Assembly (NCBI RefSeq): GCF_963666195.1 | Contig: NZ_OY762653.1 | Span: 1,612,001 to 1,676,000 of the forward strand | Length of the DNA stretch: 64,000 nucleotides | From: Trichococcus shcherbakoviae | GTDB lineage: Bacteria > Bacillota > Bacilli > Lactobacillales > Aerococcaceae | Direction: 5' to 3' | Part shown: one piece after another, positions 17,569-48,112 of the stretch | How positions within the stretch are numbered: the stretch's first letter is position 1 | How the letters are laid out: each line of letters begins with the position of its first letter | Notes under the pieces: generated by a model | What the model was told of the DNA's origin: nothing | Database searches by the model: none | What the model saw: only the letters and a program-made list of their open reading frames with translations | Position numbers and translations under genes: made by a program

Positions 17569-17619
17569 AAAAAAAGAGTCCACATCCGGATAGTATCTCC
17601 GGATGCGGACTCTTTTTTG
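17569..17619 (-). terminator. Terminator of purA
   Basis: GAGTCCGCATCCGGA / TCCGGATGTGGACTC stem with a T run on the minus strand, 15 bases after the purA stop. Confidence 0.9.
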
Positions 17620-19048: not shown

Positions 19049-20416
19049 TTAACTAATTTCCGGCATATAGCTCATCGAAGAAAATTTATTGAATTCCTTT
19101 TTGAACAGGAGCTTTACGGTTCCCCGCGCCCCACTCCGGTTTTTTTCGATGATGACTTCTACGACATTGTTCTCCTGCTCATCCCGTTCCGATTCTTCGC
19201 CGCCTTCACGTTCGTAATAATCATCGCGGTACAGGAAAGCAACGATATCGGCATCCTGCTCGATCGATCCCGATTCACGGATATCGCTCAATACCGGACG
19301 CTTGTCTTGCCTTTGCTCCACGCCACGGGACAATTGGGAAAGGGCGATTACCGGTACTTTCAGTTCCTTCGCCAACTTTTTCAATTGACGCGAAATGTCG
19401 GAAACTTCCTGTTGGCGACTTTCGCGGTTATTCCCTTCGATCAGCTGCAGATAATCGATCACGATGAGGCCCAGTTTTCCCTGTTCCTGCAGCAAACGAC
19501 GGCTTTTTGCCCTGATTTCCGCAATCCGGATCCCCGGCGTATCATCTATGAAGATTTTTGACTGGCCCAGCGTCCCCATCGCCATGATCAGGTTGGACCA
19601 CTCATCCTCAGAAAGCTGTCCTGTCCTCAGGTGGCCGGCATCGATGTTCCCTTCCGCACACAGCATCCGGTTGACCAATGACTCCGCCCCCATCTCCAAG
19701 CTGAAGATAGCGACTACCTGATCCGCCTTGGTTGCGACATTCTGCGCGATGTTCAGCGCAAAAGCGGTCTTACCTACGGCCGGACGCGCCGCCAGGATGA
19801 TCAGCTCTTCTTTTTGGAGGCCCGCCGTCATTTTGTCCAAAGCGATATAGCCTGTCGGCACCCCAGTGACGTCATCGCTTCGTTGAGCCAATGATTCGAT
19901 ATTCTGCAGCGATGCCGAAACGACATCCGATATGCGGATGAACCCGGATCGGTTTCTCCGTTCGGATACCTGAAGGATGTTCTGTTCGGCGCTGTCCAGC
20001 ATGACAGCAAGCTCATCACCCTCTTCATAGCCTTTGCGGACGATTTCTGTAGCTGATCGGATCAGATTGCGCAAGATCGATTTCTCTTCCACTATCTTGG
20101 CGTAATATTCCACGTTGGCTGAAGTGGGTACCGCGACCGCCAATTCGGCTAAGTACTCCATGCCGCCAGCATTTTCAAGCTGATTCTTCGTATCCAACTC
20201 ATTCGAGATAGTGACGACGTCTATCGCTTCATTCCGATTGTTCAATTGCAAAATCGCATCAAAAATAATCTGATGATTTTTTCTGTAAAAATCAGATGAT
20301 TCAAGGTATTCTAAAACATTCACAACCGTTTCGGGATCCAAAAAAATGGAACCCAGAACGGATTGCTCTGCTTCTATACTATGAGGGGGTATGCGATCTT
20401 GAAGTGTATCTTCCAT
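19049..20416 (-). CDS. dnaB: Replicative DNA helicase
   Basis: Hexameric 5'-3' helicase of the replication fork. 455 residues: N-terminal helical domain (about 1-105, PPHSIEAEQSVLGSI), linker, and a RecA-like C-terminal domain with Walker A ARPAVGKTAFAL, FSLEMGAESL, Walker B LIVIDYLQL and SQLSRGVEQR. Ends normally. Downstream of rplI and gdpP on the leading strand. Confidence 0.97.
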   Translation of the reverse strand: MEDTLQDRIPPHSIEAEQSVLGSIFLDPETVVNVLEYLESSDFYRKNHQIIFDAILQLNNRNEAIDVVTISNELDTKNQLENAGGMEYLAELAVAVPTSANVEYYAKIVEEKSILRNLIRSATEIVRKGYEEGDELAVMLDSAEQNILQVSERRNRSGFIRISDVVSASLQNIESLAQRSDDVTGVPTGYIALDKMTAGLQKEELIILAARPAVGKTAFALNIAQNVATKADQVVAIFSLEMGAESLVNRMLCAEGNIDAGHLRTGQLSEDEWSNLIMAMGTLGQSKIFIDDTPGIRIAEIRAKSRRLLQEQGKLGLIVIDYLQLIEGNNRESRQQEVSDISRQLKKLAKELKVPVIALSQLSRGVEQRQDKRPVLSDIRESGSIEQDADIVAFLYRDDYYEREGGEESERDEQENNVVEVIIEKNRSGARGTVKLLFKKEFNKFSSMSYMPEIS

Positions 20417-20448
20417 TTTATATTTTCACCCTTTAGGTTTTTTCATTC

Positions 20449-20482
20449 GGACGAGGCAATCATTCCTGGCTACCTCGTCTTT
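20449..20482. other. Hairpin in the rplI-dnaB spacer
   Basis: GACGAGG (20449-20455) pairs with CCTCGTC (20472-20478), followed on the plus strand by TTTTGCTTCC. It lies in the 5' leader of dnaB on the minus strand. The remaining bases of this 280-base spacer (20483-20642) hold no recognisable gene. Confidence 0.4.
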
Positions 20483-20642
20483 TGCTTCCTTATTGTATCC
20501 TAAATCAGCCATATTTACAATTCAGAAAAACGAACTCTTGTTCCCATTTGTAAAAAATTCTGTTGGGTCAGTCCGCCTTAAAAAGGCCGTCAGATTAATT
20601 TTCTTCTATATTATAGGAGTTGCCTCAGTGATCCTCATAAGC

Positions 20643-20682
20643 AAACGAAAAGACAGAGATTGGTATCCCTGTCTTTCGTTTG
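20643..20682 (-). terminator. Terminator of the gdpP-rplI unit
   Basis: AAACGAAAGACAGGGAT pairs with ATCTCTGTCTTTTCGTTT just after the rplI stop on the minus strand. Confidence 0.8.
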
Positions 20683-20696
20683 TGTTTGGAAAATTA

Positions 20697-21146
20697 TTAC
20701 CCTTCCGTCACTTGTACAGTCAACATCGCTGTCACTTCCGGATGAATTTTTACGGGCATTTTTGTGAAACCCAATGCGCGGATAGGATTTTCTAATTCAA
20801 TTTTTCGTTTATCCAATTTAACATTATGTTGCTTTTGCAACGCTTCAGCAACCTGTTTCGTTGTTATGGAACCGAACAATCGACCATCTTCGCCAATTTT
20901 TGCGGACAATTTGATGATTGATTCATCATTCTCCAGCAGTGCTTTTAATTCTTGGGCTGCTGCTAACTCCTCTGCCTGCTTCTTCTCTTCAGCCTTCTTT
21001 TGGCCTTTCAATGCGGAAATAGTGGCGGCATTCGCTTCTTCAGCCTTGCGGTTTTTGATCAGGAAATTAGCGTAGCCATCCGCAACATCTTTGACTTCCC
21101 CTTTTTTACCTTTACCTTTAACGTCCTCTAAAAAAACAACTTTCAT
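20697..21146 (-). CDS. rplI: 50S ribosomal protein L9
   Basis: 149 residues. The N-terminal rRNA-binding domain ([29 protein letters not shown]) is joined by a long charged helix (about 40-75, Glu/Ala/Lys-rich) to the C-terminal domain. Starts 3 bases after the gdpP stop, with its ribosome site GGAAGGGG inside gdpP, so the two genes are co-transcribed. Confidence 0.97.
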
Positions 21147-21149
21147 TTA

Positions 21150-23168
21150 TTATTCCCCTTCCTTGATTTTTTCTGGATTTATGACTGCTTTCAGTTTCTC
21201 AACGACTTCATGGACTGTCGTATTCTCAATCTGAGTGGCTGCATTGGATAAATGTCCGCCGCCACCTAATTTTTCCATGACTGTCTGCACATTGTATTGA
21301 CCCAGACTTCTGGCGCTGATTCCGACTCTGCCGTCTTGGCGTTTTGTGACGACAAATGAAGCATCTACCGCTTCCATCGACAACATCGTGTCGGCTGTTT
21401 GAGCAGCTACGACTGTGTCATAGATTTTTTCATCTTCCCCATGGACGATCGCCAGGTTACCATTCACAAATTCCATTGTCTGCAACAAATGGCTTCGCAA
21501 CAGATAAGTATCCAAGTCCTCTTTCAGTGATTTCTGGATCAGTACGGTATCGGCTCCATTAGATTGCAGATAACTGGCAGCATCAAAAGTCCTTGATCCG
21601 GTTCTCAAACTGAAGTTGCGGGTATCGACGATAATCCCCGCCAACATAGCAGTTGCTTCTATCTTATTGATAGCATCCATCTCATTGGATTGATATTCGA
21701 ACAATTCAGCGATCAATTCCGATGTGGAGGACGCATAAGGTTCCATATAAACCAAAACAGAATCTTTCGGAAATTCTTGTCCGCGTCTGTGATGATCCAA
21801 AACAACTATTTTTTTGGACAGATTCAACAGCCCAGGTGCCGGTGTCATGGATGGGCGATGGACATCAACCATCACGATCAGCGTCTGTGGCGTCACCAAT
21901 GCCATTGCTTGTTCAGGCGAAATGATCCGCTTCGCAATCAAAGGATCTTTGTCTATCTCCTGCATGATCCGGTTCACATCATTGGAAAATTGTTGCGGAT
22001 CCAATACTATCCAGGCTTCCCGATTGTTCATCTGAGAAATGCGGCGGATTCCTAAACAGGAACCGATAACGTCCATATCCGGATAACTATGACCCATGAT
22101 GATAACTTTATCGGCATGGATAATAAGCTCTTCCAAAGCTTGGCTGATCATTCTCGCACGGATACGGGTCCGTTTTTCCATTGGGTTAGTTTTACCACCA
22201 TAGAAACGGGCATCTTCATTTTCGGCCCGCACAACAACCTGATCGCCACCTCTTGCCAAGGCTAAATCAATATTCGACTGCGCCATTTTAGCGACTTCTT
22301 TAAAATTGGTTTGCTCAAAAGTTTTCTCATATGAGAAACCCATGCTCAATGTCAACGGAAAATTTTGCTTGTAGGTTCTTTCCCTTATTTGATTTATGAT
22401 ATCAAAATTGTTTTCTTCGATTTTCTTTAATGCACGCATATTGGTCAATGCTATAAAGCGGTCATCATCTACTCGTTTCAGAAAGACATTATTCATGTTT
22501 GCCCAATTTGTGAGTTGATTCGTCAGATAGTTGTTTACATTCGATCGCTTACGATCGTTCATGGATTGAACAGCCTCATCATAATTGTCGACAATGATAT
22601 TCCCAAAAACAAATTTTTCGTCTTTGTACTTCTCTTCAATTTTGGCATATTCTGTTATATCCATCAAATAAATGACGCCAATATCCTCTTGAATGATCAT
22701 ATCAAAATAATGATCTCCCCATTTCACACGGCGTATCACATAATCCTGCGATTCTTTAAAAAGCTGATATAATTCTTCATCAACCACTTTCAGCTTTCTG
22801 CCCAGTGTATCTTTCTTGCCAAAATACTTTATTAAATATGGGTTCATCCATTGGATTTCTTCTTGCTTATTATATAGAAGTATCCCAATAGGCATTTTAA
22901 TTAAAGCCTCTTGTTCACCTTTTTTGATTCGATAAGATAAGTCAGATATGTATTGATTTGTCTCATCAATCAAATACTCCGAAGAATAACTGATGAACCC
23001 AACAATTCCAACGCATAAGAGCGTAATTCCAATACCGATTTTCCAGTCTGCAATGAAAGTCAAAACAACAATCACCAGCAATAAGAACACGATAATCAGG
23101 AAAGGAACCTTAATCTTGTCAGCCTTTATGAAGTGAGGAAGATTCTTTAACTTTTCCTTTATTTTCAT
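21150..23168 (-). CDS. gdpP: Cyclic-di-AMP phosphodiesterase GdpP
   Basis: Membrane enzyme that degrades c-di-AMP. About 672 residues from the ATG at 23168 (AAAGGAG five bases upstream); the frame extends to 23216 without a ribosome site. Two membrane helices at about 20-70 (VPFLIIVFLLLVIVVLTF and a second), a PAS domain, a degenerate GGDEF domain, then DHH/DHHA1: MGHSYPDMDVIGS, MVDVHRPSM, VVLDHHRRG and the C-terminal GGGGHLSNAATQ. Conserved neighbour of rplI and dnaB in Firmicutes. Confidence 0.95.
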   Translation of the reverse strand: MKIKEKLKNLPHFIKADKIKVPFLIIVFLLLVIVVLTFIADWKIGIGITLLCVGIVGFISYSSEYLIDETNQYISDLSYRIKKGEQEALIKMPIGILLYNKQEEIQWMNPYLIKYFGKKDTLGRKLKVVDEELYQLFKESQDYVIRRVKWGDHYFDMIIQEDIGVIYLMDITEYAKIEEKYKDEKFVFGNIIVDNYDEAVQSMNDRKRSNVNNYLTNQLTNWANMNNVFLKRVDDDRFIALTNMRALKKIEENNFDIINQIRERTYKQNFPLTLSMGFSYEKTFEQTNFKEVAKMAQSNIDLALARGGDQVVVRAENEDARFYGGKTNPMEKRTRIRARMISQALEELIIHADKVIIMGHSYPDMDVIGSCLGIRRISQMNNREAWIVLDPQQFSNDVNRIMQEIDKDPLIAKRIISPEQAMALVTPQTLIVMVDVHRPSMTPAPGLLNLSKKIVVLDHHRRGQEFPKDSVLVYMEPYASSTSELIAELFEYQSNEMDAINKIEATAMLAGIIVDTRNFSLRTGSRTFDAASYLQSNGADTVLIQKSLKEDLDTYLLRSHLLQTMEFVNGNLAIVHGEDEKIYDTVVAAQTADTMLSMEAVDASFVVTKRQDGRVGISARSLGQYNVQTVMEKLGGGGHLSNAATQIENTTVHEVVEKLKAVINPEKIKEGE

Positions 23169-23283
23169 GATAGCTCCTTTACTGAACCTACATTTTGCAC
23201 TCGTACATTTTAACATATTCAGATAATAATAGCTATAATGCCCTTTCTGACGGGATTAGTTGACATCTCAACGTCAAATTGAA

Positions 23284-23299
23284 TGTTTCACGTGAAACA
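23284..23299. other. parS site (perfect 16-bp palindrome)
   Basis: TGTTTCACGTGAAACA, matching the Firmicutes ParB/Spo0J centromere consensus. Lies 115 bases upstream of gdpP at the edge of the non-coding block. Confidence 0.92.
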
Positions 23300-23655
23300 T
23301 TTCCCCTGAATAAAGTTCGTATTCCGGATAGCGGACTTTCTGAGCATACCCCGGTCATCGTAATGTTTTCGGCGTTTAAACGTATAATTTCCTCAAAATA
23401 AATATGTGCTCTAGAATGGGTGGTGCAAACGTTCCCGCCTATCCAGTCTTCATACACCATCTGGCAAATTGAACTAAAGTGCTGCATTTTTTCTGGATAT
23501 TTTTTCAAAGCATACCTGCATTTAGATGTGTACTTATCCGCAAACGGATTTAGGTACCGTGAAAATTAATCTCTCAAAATAGTAACCATTCCTGATCTAA
23601 ATGTAATTATTATTATAGTTTTCACTTAGTTGCAATTGCCTCTACCATCTTTAAT

Positions 23656-23671
23656 AGTTCCACGTGGAACA
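23656..23671. other. parS site
   Basis: AGTTCCACGTGGAACA: the parS core TTCCACGTGGAAC with one outer mismatch from the symmetric 16-mer. Confidence 0.8.
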
Positions 23672-23731
23672 TTTATTGATTACCCCTTCTATTTTTAAAA
23701 CTCCTGTGTATATTCCATTTTTCTTAATCTA

Positions 23732-23747
23732 TGTTCCACGTGGAACT
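23732..23747. other. parS site
   Basis: TGTTCCACGTGGAACT, one outer mismatch. Only 60 bases from the previous site, so ParB could nucleate on both. Confidence 0.82.
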
Positions 23748-23948
23748 TTTTTGTTCGATTATGCTGTCTTTTCGATTTGATCCCTTCTCTTACTATTTTT
23801 TCAGCTTAACCTCGCTTTCTTTCAATCTATTATTCCAACAACCCTTTTTACGAAAAATGATTTTTCTAATGACTTCTATTACTATTTCACTAATTATTTG
23901 AATAATCTAGCTATACGATGTTCTTCTATTTTTTCATAAAATCTGCAG

Positions 23949-23976
23949 AATCAATTTTCTTGCTTGAAAATTGATT
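23949..23976. repeat. 11-bp inverted repeat in the origin-like block
   Basis: AATCAATTTTC (23949-23959) and GAAAATTGATT (23966-23976) with a 6-base loop. Perfect arms, AT-rich; could extrude as a hairpin or bind a dimeric protein. Confidence 0.6.
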
Positions 23977-24639
23977 TTCATCCTGTCTATTTTTTTCAGT
24001 TTTCGCATTTTTTAGCAGCACATTTTTTTGTGGATAACTCGAACTATCCCCACCCTTTGCAGTTATGCACATTATTCGACGTTTGCCTGTGTATAACTAA
24101 ATCGAATAGTATGTTCTAACCTTGCTATAATAGGATTTCTGCTATAAAATAACTTTGTTGATAACTTATTAACTTGCTATTATTTATGACAGCTTTGGCG
24201 CTGTCGAATACCTGTGGACATCCTGTGCATAAGTCGGTGTGATTACGCTGATTCTTATATATTCGTCTGAACATTTGTTTGATTAGTGTATTTATGAAAT
24301 AATGTCCTTTATTTTGGATGAATTTTCTATCATTTTAATGAAAATTACCGGATTTTGAAAAAGTCACCCTATATATTCAGCAATTAGTCATTCCTGCCCG
24401 TTTGCAAATTCATAACAGAAGTCCGTTGATCTTGATGAGATCCTTCTGTGGATAAAAGAGCAGGGAATAGTTTTCCACATCTTGTTTTTTAATGTACAGT
24501 CAGTCCTGAAATAATCTTCATATCCTTTTGTGGATAATAGAAAATACAAATATAATCAGCCTGTGTACAACCTACATCACACGCCAGTGAGGTCAACTAC
24601 CTCGATGAAATCCATCCCATCAATATAGTATGCAAAAAA

Positions 24640-24990
24640 AAGCCTATTGCTCTTCCAGCACCTAACTTTAATTTTGATTCATCGCAATTAGCCCAAACAT
24701 TACGGGGATGTAGCTGGTGAAGCGAGACAATTCAACCGACCAAACACCAAAAAACCGTAAAGCCCTAAGTCTAAATTTCCAGGAAAAAATCGTTATGTGA
24801 GCATAACTCACCCAGACACTTGATGGAAACCGCAAAAAAAATGGCGCTTAATTCGAGCGATCATCGCTTCGGCAGGTCCGTTGCAGCAAGGGTGAAGTCA
24901 TCCGCCGTAAATCAATGGGTGGCGGCACAAGCCAGCGACTTTGGCCATGTGTCATTGATGAATAACTTCAGAATATCCATCATTTCAATT
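24640..24990 (-). other. Degenerate element, possibly decayed coding or repeat sequence
   Basis: More GC-rich than its surroundings. On the minus strand one frame reads NDTWPKSLACAATH, stop, FTADDFTLAATDLPKR, stop; further on, another reads FGVWSVELSRFTSYIPVM. The element ends near a poly-T stretch (24636-24644 read in reverse). It looks like decayed or repeat-derived sequence rather than a gene. I do not recognise the family. Confidence 0.35.
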
Positions 24991-25574
24991 CAGCTGCACC
25001 TTAGGAATATACAGCTTAAACGAAAACCTTCAACAGTAAGGATGACCCTATTTGAATAGTGCCAATTTGTTTTCATTTTTTGATGCCATGTATATTTTTT
25101 TCAATCCGGGACCTGATCCTATGCATCTATTAATAATTTCGATAGCTATAAATGTAATATCGGCAACTTTTCACGCACAGACGGATGGGTATCTCATGAT
25201 GCCAAGTCCTTAGTTCATCTGCAATATATTCAATTGAATGAGTCTGATTTCGTGGGGCATCACTATCTGTTTTATAGCCCTTAAGAAAACAGGGGAGGTA
25301 TGTCGCTGATATGTGTTGTTACGTATCGGGTAACTACTACAGTACGGGGGATAGAAGGGGATGTCTTATTGTTTGCTGGATTGAAAACTGTAGCCAATCC
25401 CAAACAATCCAGTTCTGCCTGTTTCAGAAATATATTATTTATGAATGAAGCATACGCATCAGGAGATGGCCTAGATCCGCAGGTGATACTTTTTGGGGAT
25501 TCCCACTTTCAATTTTTGAGAGCAATACCCACTAAGGAAAATATATTGGAGCAATCCAGAAGTTATTCAGCATC

Positions 25575-25622
25575 ACAAACGGCGATACAATGTTCCACGT
25601 GGAACATTGTATCGCCGTTTGT
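25575..25622. repeat. 48-bp perfect palindrome centred on a parS site
   Basis: Two 24-base arms with no mismatch and no spacer: 25575-25598 (ACAAACGGCGATACAA then TGTTCCAC) and its exact reverse complement 25599-25622. The central 16 bases (25591-25606) are TGTTCCACGTGGAACA, a symmetric parS. A T-rich stretch (TTTTTCTTTT) follows on the plus strand, so as RNA it would also look like a terminator. Confidence 0.93.
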
Positions 25623-26119
25623 TTTTCTTTTATTGAAATCAGCGAAATTTGAGCCTCTGACAGCATCTGCATTCTTATTAGAAGTATTTACCCATGACTT
25701 AGGATGGTTCGTTCTCACAGGGATATAATGGCCCGATCAGAGCATTCTAGTGCCTATCCTTATATCTATCGATGGAGAATACCCAGGTAGAGGGAACCAG
25801 CGCTTATGAAAAATACTTTGGAGTATTTCTGTCAGTAAGAAGCGGAGGGTGGGGCGTTTAAATGGAGTGTCCCATGTATTGAGGGATAGTGTTATCGGAA
25901 TGATCCGGCTCACCCTGATAGATAAATATAGTGTCTACTTGGCTGATTTAGTGCTTGGGCGGAGCCTCTCAGAACGATGCATCAAGCAGTTTGCTTTATC
26001 TGACCATACGCTCGTTCGATAGAAGCGGATAGGGCACTTCAAAAAAAATTTGTATCCGGAAGAGGGGGTAGGTGCTAAGATGCAATGCGTGTCCATATCC
26101 AGCAACTGTTTTTGGGTAC

Positions 26120-26150
26120 AAAAAAAGGAGCGCTCCTGGAAGCGACTCCC
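26120..26150 (-). terminator. Terminator of the rpsF-ssb-rpsR operon
   Basis: GGGAGTCGCT / AGCGCTCC stem with one bulge, then seven T residues on the minus strand, just after the rpsR stop. Confidence 0.85.
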
Positions 26151-26156
26151 TTAATA

Positions 26157-26399
26157 TTATTCTGCTAATGTAAATGGCATAAGAGCCATGATACGAGAAC
26201 GTTTGATAGATACAGTCAAAGTTCTTTGATGTTTAGCGCATGTACCTGTTACACGACGAGGTAAAATTTTACCTTTTTCAGATATATAACGTTTCAATAA
26301 ATCAGTCTCTTTGTAATCTACATGATCAATGTGGTTAGCACAGAAATAACAAACTTTCTTACGTTTGCGTCCGCCTCTGCTGTTACGTTGAAATGCCAT
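26157..26399 (-). CDS. rpsR: 30S ribosomal protein S18
   Basis: 80 residues, basic N-terminus ([20 protein letters not shown]), [25 protein letters not shown] motif. Forms a heterodimer with S6 on the 30S platform; S6 is encoded two genes upstream in the same operon. Only CxxC is seen (CYFC), and a further cysteine in GTCAKHQ. Confidence 0.97.
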
Positions 26400-26442
26400 G
26401 TCAATTCCTCCTTTTCCTAAACTAACCGTTCTGTCCTAAAGA

Positions 26443-26994
26443 CTAGAACGGTAAATCATCATCTGAAATGTCAATTGATTCTCCGTTTGATGAAAACGGA
26501 TCAGCAGTTGAGTTAAAATCAGAAAAACCGTTTTGTTTCGGAGAAGAGTATTGATTATTATACTGTCCTTGGTTTTGGTTAGATTCAAAAGATTTGCTTG
26601 ATCCGAAGTTTGCACTCGGAGCTGCTTGATTTGAAGAAGCTGCGCCAGTCTCTCTCGGTCTTTGTTCGGTAGTTGTTTTCGATTCCAACAATGTGAAATT
26701 ATCTGCAACGACTTCAGTCACGTATACGCGCTGTCCTTGTTGATTATCATAATTCCTTGTTTGGATTCGGCCAGTGATACCGACTAAAGAGCCTTTACGA
26801 GTGAAATTCGCGAAATTCTCTGCAGATTTTCTCCAAATGACACAATTGATGAAGTCAGCTTCTCTTTCTCCTGCTTGGTTAGTAAACTGTCTGTTTACTG
26901 CAAGAGCGAAGGTTCCGACTGCTGTGCCGCTGGATGTATAGCGTAAATCAACATCTTTTGTAAGTCTGCCGACTAAGACAACATTATTAATCAT
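26443..26994 (-). CDS. ssb: Single-stranded DNA-binding protein
   Basis: 183 residues. OB fold in residues 1-105 ([77 protein letters not shown] in two parts), then a Gln/Ser/Asn-rich flexible linker, and the acidic tip DDDLPF that recruits partner proteins. Lies between rpsF and rpsR in the classic operon. Confidence 0.97.
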
Positions 26995-27014
26995 TCATCT
27001 TACTCCTTTCAAAA

Positions 27015-27030
27015 TGTTTCACGTGGAACA
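27015..27030. other. parS site between rpsF and ssb
   Basis: TGTTTCACGTGGAACA, the asymmetric form of the 16-bp consensus, placed in the 38-base gap between the rpsF stop and the ssb start; it therefore also lies in the operon mRNA just ahead of the ssb ribosome site. Confidence 0.88.
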
Positions 27031-27032
27031 CT

Positions 27033-27326
27033 TTACTTAGTTTCTACTTTAACAACGATGTGGCGAATGATATCGCTATTGATCTTTGCTAGACGGTCGA
27101 ATTCGTCGATTGCTTTAGCATCTGAAGCAGAAATTTTCACGATATGGTAGATACCTTCACGAAAATCTTTGATTTCATAAGCTAAACGGCGTTTCGCCCA
27201 GTCTTTTGATTCAATAACTTCAGCGCCATTATCAGTTAAAATAGAATCGAAACGTGCGATCAATTCTGCTTTAGCTTCTTCTTCGATGTTAGGACGGATA
27301 ATGTAGTTGATTTCGTAATTGCTCAT
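27033..27326 (-). CDS. rpsF: 30S ribosomal protein S6
   Basis: 97 residues, ferredoxin-like fold: [56 protein letters not shown]. First gene of the operon with ssb and rpsR; AAGGAGGTGACAGTCAA precedes the start. The leader (27327-27420) may carry the S6:S18 autoregulatory RNA, but I could not confirm its motif. Confidence 0.97.
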
Positions 27327-27471
27327 TTGACTGTCACCTCCTTGTGGACTTTGGCCCTTACTTTTGTAAGAGCAAGGAGAGTACCTTTTCAGGATTACTC
27401 ACATCTAAAGATTGTACCATATTTCATTTTTTATGGCAAGCCTTTTTTTCAGCCTCATTCAAAGAGGGCGA

Positions 27472-27513
27472 AAAAAACGGAGGAAACTGTCCTGGGACGG
27501 TTTCCTCCGTTTT
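27472..27513 (-). terminator. Terminator of the gyrB-gyrA operon
   Basis: AAAACGGAGGAAAC / GTTTCCTCCGTTTT, a 14-base perfect stem with T run on the minus strand, 28 bases after the gyrA stop. Confidence 0.92.
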
Positions 27514-27540
27514 AGCGGTATTAGCTTTTGTATCGAAGTT

Positions 27541-30168
27541 TTATTCTTCCGAATCTTCTTCATCCAACAGTTCATCCGCGAAATCGCTCAATTTATCGGC
27601 CATTTCGGATGTTTCCGCTGCATCTGGTGTATTTGCCTGTTCGGTAGCATCAGCTGCTTCTAAGGCGCTGTTTTCGCCTTCTGAGCCCACTTCCTCATTC
27701 AGAGGTGCCACAACTTCTTCATCCTCTTCGCGCTCAACTTTTGCCATTGTCGATACAATGGCTTCGCCATCAAGCTTGATCAAGCGCACGCCCAGAGTGG
27801 CACGGCCAGTTTGGGAAATGGCATCCGCGTGGAAACGGATCATGACGCCTTTGTCCGTGATGATCATGATGTCTTCATCGCCAGAGACAGTCGTCAACCC
27901 TACCAATTTACCGTTTTTCTCAGTGATGTTGGCTGTTTTGACCCCTTTGCCGCCGCGTCCTTTGATGGCATACTCATCGGCTGCCGTACGTTTGCCGTAA
28001 CCATTTTCCGTGATGATCAGAACTTCCGACTCGTGTTTCAGCACATCCATGCCGACAACATAATCGTTTTCTCTCAGTTTCACGCCTCGGACACCGGTGG
28101 CGGTCCTCCCCATATCGCGGACGTCCTTTTCATCAAAGCTTACGGAATAGCCGAAGTGCGTTCCGATGATGATGTTCTGGTTGCCGTCAGTCAAGGATAC
28201 TTTGATCAGCTCATCCTCATCCTTCAGGTTGATTGCGCGCAGACCGCTTTGACGGATATTTTGGAATTCAGTGGCGGATGTCCGTTTGACGGTACCCATC
28301 CGTGTCGTGAAGAACAAGTAATCCCCGTCTTGCGGGCCACCTTTGACATTGATGATGGCTTGGATTTTCTCGTTGGCATCCAAGTTCAGCAAGTTGATGA
28401 TCGGCAAACCTTTTGCCTGGCGGCCGTATTCAGGCACTTCATAGCCTTTTGTTTTGTATACTTTCCCTTGGTTCGAGAAGTACAGCAACACATCGTGCGT
28501 CGATGCCGAAATCAGCGTTTCGATGAAATCATCATCATGGATGCCCATGCCTTGGACACCGCGTCCGCCGCGTTTTTGGGCTCTGAATTCGCTGTTCGGC
28601 AAACGTTTGATGTAACCGTTGTGGGTCAAAGTCAGGACGATGTCTTCCTCTTCGATCAAGTCTTCATCCTCAAGCGACAATACTTCTCCGACCAAAAGTT
28701 CCGTGCGGCGTTTGTCGCCGAATTTTTCTTGGATTTCAAGCAGTTCCGTATAGATGATGTCGAAGACACGCTGCTCATTCGCTAAAATATCAGCCAGATC
28801 AGCAATCAAAGCCATCAGCGCATCATACTCTGCTTCAACTTTTTCTCTTTCCAAACCGGTCAGACGCACCAAACGCATATCCAAAATGGCTTGTGCTTGT
28901 TTGTCGGAAAGACCGTATTTGTCGATGAAAATTTGTTTGGCCGCATCGCCATTGGTTGAACCGCGCAGAATCGCTACGATTTCATCGATGTGATCCAAAG
29001 CGATCCGCAAACCGGCCAAGATATGCGCACGGGCTTCCGCTTTTCGTTTATCGAATGCGGCTCTTCTGCGGATGACTTCTTCTTGGTGTTCCAGGTAATG
29101 GACCAGAATCTGCTTGAGTCCCAGCACTTTAGGGATGCCTTTTACGATCGCCAACATATTGAAGCCGAAAGATGATTGGAGCGGCGTCAATTTATAGAGA
29201 TTATTCAGAATGACGCCGGCACTGAAATCCTTGCGGACATCGATGACAACACGCATGCCGTCGCGGTCGGATTCATCCGCCAAGTCGGTTATGCCTTCGA
29301 TCCGTTTATCGCGGGCCAGTTCAGCAATCCGTTCGACCAATTTCGCTTTGTTGACCATGTAAGGCAATTCCGAAATGATGATGCGTTCTTTGCCGTTTTT
29401 CAGGATTTCGACCTCTACACGTCCGCGGACAATGATTGAGCCTTTGCCCGTTTCATAGGCTTTTCTGATGCCTGATTTGCCCATGACGATACCGCCTGTA
29501 GGGAAATCTGGGCCAGGAACGGCCTCCATCAATTCGGCAGTCGTCGCATCCGGATCATTCATCAGGATATGTAGGGCGGAAATGACTTCCGTCAGGTTGT
29601 GCGGTGGGATATTTGTCGCCATCCCAACAGCGATACCGGAAGCTCCATTCACCAGCAGGTTAGGGAAGCGGGCCGGCAATACATCGGGTTCACTTTCGGA
29701 ACCGTCATAGTTATCGTGATAATCGACTGTATCCTTGTTGAGGTCACGCAACATCTCCAAGGCGATTTTTGACATCCGCGCTTCGGTGTAACGCATCGCT
29801 GCGGCGCTGTCTCCATCGATTGAGCCGAAGTTTCCGTGTCCATCGACCAACGGATAACGGTAACTGAAATCCTGGGACATACGCACCATGGATTCATAGA
29901 TGGCACTGTCACCGTGGGGATGGTACTTACCCATTACGTCCCCGACGATACGTGCGGATTTTTTGTGTGCTTTATCAGGCGTAACGCCCAATTCGCTCAT
30001 GCCGTACAGAATCCGGCGATGGACCGGCTTGAGTCCGTCACGGACGTCAGGCAAAGCCCTGGCTACGATAACGCTCATGGCATATTCCAGGAATGAAGTT
30101 TCCATTTCATGGCTTAATTCCCTTTGTTCCATGGCTTGATCATTTATTTTTTCAATTTCATCAGACAT
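27541..30168 (-). CDS. gyrA: DNA gyrase subunit A
   Basis: 875 residues. The breakage-reunion domain has the catalytic Tyr127 in [12 protein letters not shown] and the quinolone region [10 protein letters not shown] (Ser88 and Glu92, the usual susceptible residues). The C-terminal beta-pinwheel contains the GyrA box [10 protein letters not shown]. After the pinwheel there is an unusually long acidic tail of about 65 residues rich in Glu, Asp and Ala. Downstream of gyrB by 18 bases. Confidence 0.97.
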
Positions 30169-30186
30169 TTAATTTCCAACCCCCTT

Positions 30187-33246
<3,060 letters not shown>

Positions 33247-35055: not shown

Positions 35056-35205
35056 ATAAATTAAATAATATTAGTAATAGTAGTAGGGCCTGTTTATACT
35101 GTGGATAAGTGAAATAAGCTGATAAAACCAATCGTTTTCCACCTGTGGATAACGTGTTCGTAAATGGCGTCTTATTTATTGGCTTATCCACAATGCGCGA
35201 GAGGA
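35056..35205. other. DnaA-box cluster between dnaA and dnaN (origin half)
   Basis: Perfect boxes at 35100-35108, 35144-35152 (both TGTGGATAA) and 35184-35192 (TTATCCACA), in a 150-base AT-rich gap. This matches the downstream half of bipartite Firmicutes origins, where unwinding usually occurs. Confidence 0.85.
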
Positions 35206-36537
35206 TCATTTTTTCAGACTGTTTTGGATCGTCTCGATTTCGCGTTGCAGAACAGGGTCTTTTTTTACGGAAAGGGCAATCTTGTCGTGCGCGTGGATGA
35301 CAGTCGTGTGATCCTTGCCGCCGAATTCGGAACCGATTTTCGGCAAGGAATTGTCCGTCATCACTCGGGAAAGGTACATGGCGATTTGTCTTGGCACCAC
35401 GATTCCCTTGGTGCGCTTCTTGCCTTTCAATTCCTCTACGGTCACATGATAATATTTTCCTACCGCTTGCTGGATGGCATAGATGGATAAAGCTTTTGGT
35501 TTTTCGGAAGGCATGATGCTCTTCAGTGCGTCCGCTGCCAGACTGGTGGTGATGTCGGTCCCTTGTATCGCTGAATAGGCTTGAACCCGTACGAGCGCGC
35601 CTTCCAGTTCCCTGATGTTGGAATCTATCTGCCCAGCGATGTAGCTGAGGGTATCATCCGGGATCTCCAAGCGTTCGCTGTTGGCTTTTTTGCGCAGAAT
35701 GGCGATGCGTGTCTCCAGATCGGGCGGTGTGATATCAACCGATAAGCCCCAAGCAAAACGCGAGACGAGCCGTTCCTGCAGTTTCGGGATCTCGTTCGGC
35801 AAGCGATCGCTCGTCAGCACGATTTGTTTGCGTTCATCGTAAAGCGCATTGAAAGTATGGAAGAACTCTTCCTGCGTTCCTTCTTTGTCGGCAAAAAATT
35901 GGATATCATCGACCATCAATAAGTCGACGCTGCGGTATTCATTGCGGAATTGCTCCTGCGTCCGATTCTGGATGGAATTGATGAAATCATTGGCGAACGT
36001 TTCGCTGCTGACGTATTTTACCCGTGCGGTTGGCCGCAGTTGCAGCATTTGATGGCCGATGGCGTGCATCAAATGGGTCTTGCCTAAGCCGACGCCTCCA
36101 TAGAAGAAGAGCGGGTTGTAGATTGTGCCGGGTTCCTCCGCCACGACGAGGGCGGCAGCGTGAGCCATCTGGTTTCCTTTTCCGATAACAAAGGTGTCAA
36201 AGGTATACTTGCTGTTCAGTTGGGCATCCTTGAAGAGACGATTGTTGTTGGTGCGTTTTATGGTCGGTTTTGCAATATCGGGCATTTCCTCGTTCTTGAT
36301 CATAAAAATGGGAGTCAGTTCTTTGCCGCTGAATTCGTAGATGCCTTCAACAATTCTGCTCATCAAATTATTTTGCCAATAATCTTTATGTAAAGAAGAG
36401 GGAACTTCGATGATGATATTCGTATCAGTCAGTCGGACCGGGACTGCGCTGTCTATCCAAGTATCGTAGCTGACTTTGGACAGTGATTCTTGAAATTTTT
36501 CTTGCAGATAACGCCATAATGAATAGATGTCATCCAA
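35206..36537 (-). CDS. dnaA: Chromosomal replication initiator protein DnaA
   Basis: About 443 residues. Domain I ([27 protein letters not shown]), variable domain II, AAA+ domain III with Walker [16 protein letters not shown] and [14 protein letters not shown], and domain IV with the box-binding signature [16 protein letters not shown]. The frame begins at a GTG (36546) lying inside the ribosome site; the TTG at 36537 is 8 bases after GGAGG and is preferred. Initiates replication at the surrounding box clusters. Confidence 0.97.
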
Positions 36538-37107
36538 ATGGGACACCTCCTTTTAGTGAGTCCTTTTTATTTTAGCATTATATCAAAAAGTTTTCCACAA
36601 CTCTTTTCAGCTGTGAATAAAACAATTAACCGGTGTATAAATAGTTGTCCACAGGTCCAGGAAGGGTGTGGACAAGATTTGTTGATGAAGCAGTTGTCCA
36701 CGGTCGGTTGTGGAATGGAATGTTTTTAAAACATGCATTGTTACAACGTTTGATACACTTTTCCACAGGTTTTTCGGGTGGGGTTTCGGTAGAAATACAC
36801 ACGCTGTAGGAATGTGGATAAACCGGGTCGAAGGTGTGAGCAATCAGGGCGATTGCAGAAGTTATCCCGTGGCATTGTGCATTAAAAAAAAGGTTGTGGA
36901 TAATTTTATTTTGATGAGAAATAATTTTTTTTCAAGAAAGGTATTTTATCTTTCAATGTTTTGTGCTATTATATCTCAGTGAGTTCAATAAAATGAACCA
37001 ATTTTACTTGACAGGTCACATTCTGTCTCTTTATAATGTTAATGGACTGTCTAAACAGTGAAATATAACCTATTTGAAAGATAGTTTATCAGGAGGTGTA
37101 AAGATCA
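36538..37107. other. rpmH-dnaA intergenic origin region
   Basis: About 570 bases without genes at the strand switch. Perfect TTATCCACA-type boxes at 36813-36821 and 36895-36903; near matches at 36591 (TTTTCCACA), 36612, 36645 (TTGTCCACA), 36667 (TGTGGACAA), 36684, 36759. Genes diverge from here, as expected for the replication start. Promoters for dnaA (left) and rpmH (right) must lie here too. Confidence 0.88.
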
Positions 37108-47082: not shown

Positions 47083-47154
47083 ACTATTTGTAGCATGTTA
47101 TTAATTGAAAAGTGCATCACCATAGGTGTTGTACAGGTTTGCAAAATGTTTCAT

Positions 47155-47388
47155 GCATCTAAAATGATGGCTAGCGGTCCAAGCCTGCCTCTCGGAAATT
47201 AGATAAAGGAACCTCTTGTCTCTACGAGCCAAGACATACTGTTCGTCTAACCTGCTGACGCAGGAAGTCTCTCAGCAATTGCGCTCTGCGATGCTCATTT
47301 GCATGGGACTCTTAGGGGGTCATCCCCTTAGAGTCCCAGTATAAGGTGACCGTAGGGAACGTTGCGAGGCCAGATTTCCTAAATTTCT
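47155..47388. other. Structured intergenic element of unknown type
   Basis: No coding frame. It contains a strong hairpin (GGGACTCT-AGGGG / CCCCT-AGAGTCCC, about 47308-47339), a second stem CCTGC-TGAC-GCAGG near 47260, and weakly complementary ends (GGAAATTAG near 47197 and CTAAATTTC near 47377). It fills most of the GerMN-treR gap. Could be a small repeated element or a structured RNA. Confidence 0.5.
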
Positions 47389-47389
47389 T

Positions 47390-48112
47390 TTATAGGCTGT
47401 GTTTTCTGCGGGCGAATTCGACGAAACGGAAACGATCCAGACGATGGCGCGACTCGGTATATTGGAACAGACGGGTGTCTTCCAGATAGACTTCACTCTT
47501 GACGACGACGACGTGTGTGTCATCCTTCAGATCCATCAGCTTGTGATCTTCCCGTGTAGCTGCCTCTACGACGAATTCCTTTTTGGCATAAGCGATATTC
47601 AGGCCCAATTCATTCTCCAAGTACGCGTAGATGGAATTTTCGGCAGCTTCGGAAGGGATTTGCTCGATGATGTCATGGAAGAGGTAGTCTTTATCCATGA
47701 TGACGACTTCCCCGGCAATCTTGCGCAGCCGGATAAGGGAAATCACTTCTCGGTCGGGATCGACTTTCAGATCTTCGGCAAGGAATTCCGGAATGGTCTC
47801 GAGCTTATTCTTGATGACGATCGTTTCATTCGGGATTTGTTGGGAATCCTGCAGCTCTTTGAAGCTGGTCAGTCCGGAAACAGGGAAATTGAACCGTCTG
47901 ATGTCCAGCACGATGGAACCTTTGCCCTGCTTCTTCTGAATGTAGCCACCTTCCAGCAAAAGCGCCAAAGCCTTTCTGATCGTTTCCCGTGAAACCTTGT
48001 AATGGTCCGATAGCGTCTTTTCGCTCGGCAACAAAGATCCGGTTTCGAATTCCGCATGCTCAATTTTTTTTCTCAAATCCATATAGATATCGAAGAATTT
48101 ATTCATAATCAT
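47390..48112 (-). CDS. treR: Trehalose operon repressor TreR (GntR family)
   Basis: 240 residues. N-terminal winged helix (LLPSEKTLSDHYKVSRETIRKAL, KKQGKGSIVL) and a UTRA effector domain (about 85-235). FNFPVSGLTSFKELQ is a TreR hallmark. The ATG at 48112 is 4 bases after AGGAGG, and ATG at 48106 is an alternative with 10-base spacing. It should bind the two TATAC-type sites before treB and release them with trehalose-6-phosphate. Unusually it lies 3 kb beyond treC on the other strand, separated by two unrelated genes. Confidence 0.88.
   Translation of the reverse strand: MIMNKFFDIYMDLRKKIEHAEFETGSLLPSEKTLSDHYKVSRETIRKALALLLEGGYIQKKQGKGSIVLDIRRFNFPVSGLTSFKELQDSQQIPNETIVIKNKLETIPEFLAEDLKVDPDREVISLIRLRKIAGEVVIMDKDYLFHDIIEQIPSEAAENSIYAYLENELGLNIAYAKKEFVVEAATREDHKLMDLKDDTHVVVVKSEVYLEDTRLFQYTESRHRLDRFRFVEFARRKHSL

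Follow-up and report, generated by a model that had tools for sequence, protein, structure and literature searches.

According to the extracts of the literature considered here, the chromosomal parS site, i.e. the Spo0J/ParB site, has the consensus TGTTNCACGTGAAACA (PMC7022226). In Neisseria, DNA uptake sequences are found as inverted pairs in terminators (PMC2397512). Template switching has been described as making quasipalindromes more perfect in E. coli (PMC7202029), and it was proposed to maintain the stems of hairpins and RNAs (PMC8794818).

The present analysis concerns a parS site at the centre of a long palindrome in Trichococcus shcherbakoviae (NCBI RefSeq assembly GCF_963666195.1, contig NZ_OY762653.1, positions 1,612,001 to 1,676,000); this entire stretch of 64,000 nucleotides is referred to as the window. 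The initial annotation knew of no described parS with such arms, and the best-ranked matches in the titles and abstract starts of the open-licence PMC literature likewise contained no report in which parS is located in a terminator or carries extended arms. For Trichococcus together with parS no report of a parS in a terminator was detected in open-licence titles and abstract starts among the matches listed. One paper holding ParB, an intrinsic terminator and a parS site draws no link between them in the part of its text considered here.

Anatomy and genomic setting of the palindrome

The inverted-repeat search revealed a perfect palindrome of 48 bp consisting of two arms of 24 nt each (25575-25598 and 25599-25622) that are 100% complementary with 0 nt between them. 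Its centre is the 16-bp parS-type sequence TGTTCCACGTGGAACA, which is present as an exact copy nowhere else in the window, and none was obtained when the parS search was run on 100 shuffles. The initial annotation had described a perfect 48-bp palindrome centred exactly on parS, followed by a T-rich run and expected to form a very strong hairpin if transcribed. All of this was borne out: the arms are free of errors, TTTTCTTTT follows on the + strand, and the RNA is predicted to fold with -37.8 kcal/mol (z -9.6), a stable hairpin as in intrinsic terminators. The predicted DNA fold has a value of -25.9 (z -11.0).

Among the terminator-like stems listed by the terminator scan for 20000-32000 the palindrome is the longest. 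It is also the longest of 22 perfect inverted repeats (arms of at least 14, spacer 0-8) in a sample of 364 kb, comprising 15 stretches of 20 kb and the window out of the 2.9-Mb genome, and it alone is spacerless, spacers of 1-8 separating the arms of the remaining 21. Within these 364 kb, long perfect stems capped by a terminator-like loop are a usual feature of the host genome.

The stretch 25300-25640 has no second full copy in the genome, so that a mobile or repeated element was rejected. A known RNA family was also rejected, FMN, T-box and tRNA being the only Rfam assignments at gathering scores in the window. The open reading frame 25300-25728 spanning the palindrome is presumed to be mechanical, and since the flanking alignment is full of gaps the region was treated as noncoding. 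Elsewhere in the window a dispersed repeat of ~285 bp (~47106-47390) matches no Rfam family at gathering score. A 1.1-kb query containing this repeat yielded 47 matches in the host genome and, across 13 Trichococcus genomes, 10-54 per genome; among the matches listed, most fall on the ~285-bp part.

The palindrome is located in a noncoding gap of ~2.9 kb between rpsR and the gene which we take to be gdpP (Table 1), both neighbours being encoded on the - strand. The gap holds three further parS sites, and a fifth lies between ssb and rpsF. These four near copies (two mismatches at 23284, one each at 23656, 23732 and 27015) have perfect arms of just 10, 7, 7 and 3, respectively. The five parS sites span 3.75 kb at ~8-13 kb from dnaA and are the five sites of the whole genome; such clustering near the origin genes is as in chromosomal parS. 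A ParB-family gene (TIGR00180 over cut-off) was detected in 12 of the 13 Trichococcus genomes, the host copy (C1:1688011) being located ~50 kb from the parS sites of the window. The core of the palindrome very probably is a ParB site.

Six further DnaA-box-like sites near dnaA/dnaN (35100-36903) are separate from the cluster in the gap. The four-fold-site GC skew on the + strand is positive for gyrA, gyrB and dnaA and negative for dnaB and gdpP, while purA and recF do not fit. Based on the DnaA-box cluster in the gap and this skew pattern, the replication origin may be located near 24 kb rather than at dnaA. At 23732-23757, where parS 3 runs into TTTTTT on the + strand, a small terminator-like site was flagged; the T-rich stretch is retained in most aligned species, not in G001. 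About 250 bp of the gap (24700-24949) barely align with seven other species (identity 0.16-0.40 in 50-base steps) and are possibly the remnant of an inserted element.

Table 1. Coordinates in the window of the palindrome, its parts and the surrounding features.
Feature	Position	Strand	Basis or remark
gdpP-like gene, left-hand neighbour	21150..23216	-	NCBIfam bifunctional signalling protein/L9 model matches below cut-off
Promoter-like TTAACA-18-TATAAT reading into the noncoding gap	23210..23239	+	Present in 12/12 genomes; conservation only
parS 1 TGTTTCACGTGAAACA	23284..23299		Without long arms in the window
parS 2	23656..23671		Without long arms in the window
parS 3	23732..23747		Without long arms in the window; T-run next on +
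Six DnaA-box-like TTATNCACA sites, clustered in the noncoding gap of the palindrome	24029..24537		Motif search
parS-centred palindrome/hairpin stem	25575..25622		Inverted-repeat search and alignment of genomes
Left arm outside the core	25575..25590		Sequence turnover between species, symmetry retained
parS core TGTTCCACGTGGAACA	25591..25606		Intact in 11/12 genomes; Trichococcus sp. K1Tr differs at one base
Right arm outside the core	25607..25622		Changes in step with the left arm within the inner 20 pairs
T-run after the stem, U-tract of the candidate intrinsic terminator	25623..25631	+	Sequence and terminator scan
Terminator-like site after the convergent rpsF-ssb-rpsR genes	26131..26144	-	Terminator scan and alignment
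rpsR (S18), right-hand neighbour	26157..26399	-	Profile match
parS 5, between ssb and rpsF	27015..27030		Without arms

Conserved symmetry and coupled arm changes in Trichococcus

The rpsF locus was present in 12 of the 13 Trichococcus genomes searched and absent from one genome that is 63% complete. All 12 carry a parS-centred palindrome at the corresponding place between rpsR and gdpP. Since the same form recurs in 12 assemblies, far beyond shuffles, an origin by chance or as an artefact of assembly or alignment is refuted, and its probability appears negligible.

The perfect arm comprises 28 positions in T. pasteurii, 24 in the window and in SX930, 20 in T. alkaliphilus, T. collinsii, T. patagoniensis, T. 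palustris and a MAG, 19 in T. flocculiformis, 17 in G001 and 13 in T. ilyis (21 if one G-U is allowed). Strain K1Tr has 20 pairs including one G-U inside the core, at the one changed parS base, and retains both the arms and the T-run despite this change (a G-U pair in the + RNA). The sequence MUZD01000005.1, titled Sedimentibacter sp. SX930, is listed as the same species as the window, is 99.3% identical to it over the aligned region of 4.5 kb and is probably misnamed.

In an alignment of 12 rows (11 distinct) 219 of the 220 cells of the inner 20 pairs (99.5%) form standard pairs. Ten of these 20 pairs have changed on both sides, giving 34 double-change cells. The observed pairing and covariation were reached in 0/500 shuffles, and slid controls pair at 35-43%. 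The arm cells are nearly all Watson-Crick, 2 G-U and 1 A-C being found among 132. With T. palustris left out, the two arms show 1.75 and 1.83 events per site, the flanks 2.15 and 1.6, and the parS core 0 and 1 changes over 8 sites; coding DNA shows 0.12-0.16 events per site. The initial annotation had held that arms varying freely around a constant core would speak against its proposal. This applies to the arm letters, which vary at the rate of the flanks, but not to the symmetry of the inner 20 pairs, which is invariant. The conserved entity is therefore the palindrome and not the arm sequence.

The changes were also counted on a tree of 11 genomes, T. flocculiformis being left out since its locus is divided between two contigs. 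Arm pairs 9-20 show 27 coupled changes from one Watson-Crick pair to another versus one or two one-sided changes, depending on the cost of the double step, a ratio to be read with caution since these pairs were selected for being paired nearly everywhere. The ratio of double to single events is 21:1 without T. palustris, 15:1 also without T. ilyis and 11:1 also without the MAG. Over the whole arm of the window (pairs 9-24) there are 27 pair-to-pair, 4 other double and 15 single events. Only the inner 20 pairs are coupled: for pairs 21-24, which still lie within the window's own arm, the count is 13 single versus 4 double events. Coupled changes in both arms are the pattern associated with template switching at quasipalindromes.

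Three control terminators of the neighbourhood yielded single-to-double ratios of 18:5, 14:0 and 26:11 (double step at 1.5), the last one aligning poorly and including 1 change from Watson-Crick to Watson-Crick; pair-to-pair versus single events amount to 5/18, 0/14 and 1/26. In a comparison independent of single events, the palindrome shows 2.25 coupled changes per pair versus 0.24, 0 and 0.07 in these controls, which cover fewer genomes than the palindrome (without G001). Owing to misalignment L034 is not part of control 17570, and it has no match for control 17372, which aligns poorly. The three ordinary terminators contain 11-30% unpaired cells. Two additional terminator stems from other parts of the window are nearly invariant across species; some of their loci were aligned in reverse, and they are used solely for this near-invariance. 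The controls number five in all, most of them beside conserved genes.

Terminator features and armed parS sites at other places

A T-run directly follows the stem on the + strand in 12/12 genomes, as in intrinsic terminators, with 5-7 T in the best 8-base window starting 0-3 bases on. It is weakest in G001 and T. pasteurii (5/8), the latter having five more T within the stem. The - strand reaches at least 5 T of 8 in 2/12 genomes, one of them being K1Tr, where the stem count on this strand is shortened by the core change. The predicted + sense RNA folds of the sites of five genomes range from -24.9 to -41.5 kcal/mol (z -6.4 to -13.3). No other + strand terminator was detected in 23216-26157 (stem of at least 8, at most 1 mismatch, energy < -11) by a scan that is not exhaustive, since the rpsR terminator on the - strand, which has a bulge, escaped it. 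These features suggest that the palindrome probably functions as a terminator.

Upstream of the palindrome, where there is no + strand gene, lies the conserved promoter-like element. Since the promoter scan as a whole was not enriched over shuffles (27 found vs 25.2 expected) and gdpP may require part of the same sequence on the opposite strand, the element is regarded as a lead.

At least 9 of 12 flanking pairs are present in 13 of 50 distinct Trichococcus parS sites, ten at the place of the palindrome and three in T. palustris. As the search demands an intact core, K1Tr is outside this count and that of the other genera. In T. palustris four of the five parS sites bear arms and a clear T-run is found solely at the corresponding place. 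The additional three sites are located upstream of gdpP (L022, 5022-5503) and have arms of 25 (perfect), 14 (perfect) and 19 with one mismatch; the site with 25-bp arms was flagged as marginally terminator-like by the scan. Arms consequently do not require a terminator, and a role at the DNA level is conceivable.

In other genera 4 of 125 distinct parS sites have at least 9 of 12 flanking pairs (0.95 such sites on average with shuffled flanks; p 0.016, 2000 shuffles), and the mean of 3.94 flanking pairs is near the shuffled 3.72 (sd 0.14); these sites are a sample among the matches listed, with duplicate contexts removed. Arms as a general property of parS were therefore rejected. In other genera within the family 61 of 65 parS sites have at most 7 of 12 flanking pairs. 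Two other genera, represented by G029 (L052) and G088 (L064), carry parS-centred hairpins in the same gap with T-rich tails opposite the gdpP strand. In G020 (L047) the T-run is reversed, lying on the rpsR/gdpP strand, and the fourth armed site (L129) is without a clear T-run.

Interpretation and comparison with known systems

From the observed anatomy, place, symmetry, coupled arm changes and one-strand T-run we infer ParB binding, a transcript, its termination and a copying mechanism. On balance, and with somewhat better than even confidence, we regard the palindrome as a parS-cored intrinsic terminator of the + strand, the arms of which evolve in concert, probably by hairpin template switching. 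In its duplex form the 16-bp centre would serve for the loading of ParB, as other chromosomal parS sites do. A noncoding transcript would start at the promoter-like element and cross the parS/DnaA-box region. Once transcribed, the palindrome would form a hairpin of ~17-28 pairs followed by a U-tract, at which RNA polymerase would stop. The likely task would be to end noncoding transcription before the convergent rpsF-ssb-rpsR operon. The arm letters would be nearly free, a change in one arm being transferred to its partner, most likely through a template switch on the hairpin as the DNA replicates (quasipalindrome correction), and selection for termination would remove broken forms of the palindrome.

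The initial annotation had left the choice between a special ParB nucleation site, a cruciform and a terminator that has captured parS. The last of these fits best, since the T-run is confined to one strand in 12/12 genomes, the stem covaries and no other + strand terminator was found in the gap by the scan. It is the simplest reading and accounts for the place, the one-strand T-run, the stability and the survival of the hairpin in K1Tr. Taken as a plain terminator, however, it leaves the near-constant coupling unexplained, since other terminators here tolerate mismatches; template switching on hairpins would, by analogy, account for the coupled arm changes. Whether arm copying is their main cause appears evenly balanced. 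Counted against the preferred reading are arms more perfect than termination needs, given the unpaired cells of ordinary terminators, the armed T. palustris sites without T-run, the reversed T-run of G020 and the uncoupled pairs 21-24.

An ordinary terminator that happens to contain parS, with the coupled changes as normal compensatory evolution, would agree with the long perfect stems common in the host genome and with terminator 17570-17618, which shows 5 coupled events. This seems rather improbable considering that the coupled-to-single ratio is far from that of the three neighbourhood terminators and that two other stems of the window hardly change between species, although this comparison covers five controls, most beside conserved genes. 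No more probable is a purely mutational palindrome, in which the parS core would act as the seed of template switching, and the arms would be perfected and retained by this process while conferring no benefit. The excess of coupled over single events (27 vs 2), arms changing at the flank rate and the armed T. palustris sites without a clear T-run point in this direction, but mutation alone leaves the T-run on one strand in 12/12 unexplained, and the other parS cores of the gap are without long arms except in T. palustris.

Unlikely, too, is an extended palindromic centromere, in which symmetry is selected at the DNA level as a cruciform, a hairpin or a ParB-bound state (loading, sliding block, marking) and the T-run is secondary. 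The almost purely Watson-Crick arms, beyond the need of RNA, the three T. palustris sites armed without a clear T-run and the lack of a spacer, unlike the 21 other long inverted repeats, argue for it. Against it stand the T-run on one strand, the rarity of arms off this place (3 of the 13 armed sites among 50 in Trichococcus, all three in T. palustris; 61/65 sites of other genera in the family with at most 7 pairs) and K1Tr, which keeps its arms though its core has changed; cruciform extrusion would furthermore presumably split the duplex parS. A shade more doubtful is the notion that Trichococcus keeps a structure-selected centromere, with one parS per origin centred in a spacerless palindrome of conserved symmetry rather than sequence, and with a DNA hairpin or cruciform, coupled to termination or replication, as part of the ParB complex or of the working of the origin. 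These alternatives overlap with the parS-cored terminator, and their probabilities do not add up to certainty.

If the parS-cored terminator is real, loading of the ParB clamp and stopping of RNA polymerase would be joined at one site, a simple means to keep transcription from stripping ParB. Letters drifting at the local rate in locked arms would provide a clean natural case for selection versus template switching as the cause of perfect hairpins.

The locus resembles chromosomal parS in its 16-bp palindromic core, the clustering of copies near origin genes and the ParB-family gene in the genome. However, chromosomal parS is usually described as 16 bp, whereas the Trichococcus core is centred in a palindrome of ~34-56 bp with a T-run. 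With intrinsic (Rho-independent) terminators it shares the strong hairpin with a T-run directly behind it on one strand, and stems of great length are usual in the host genome, but it differs in its spacerless form, its apex consisting of a protein-binding palindrome and its arms changing in coupled steps. As in quasipalindrome correction and template-switch hairpins (PMC7202029, PMC8604942, PMC8794818) the arms become or stay complementary via coupled changes, although the extracts of these papers considered here describe a mutational process and no centromere site. The nearest parallel, as far as the extract of PMC2397512 goes, is the terminator stem formed by uptake sequences in Neisseria, where a sequence with a separate recognition function likewise serves as the stem of a terminator. 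In Neisseria each arm is formed by one of two copies, whereas in Trichococcus the apex is a single self-palindromic site flanked by arms of unrelated sequence.
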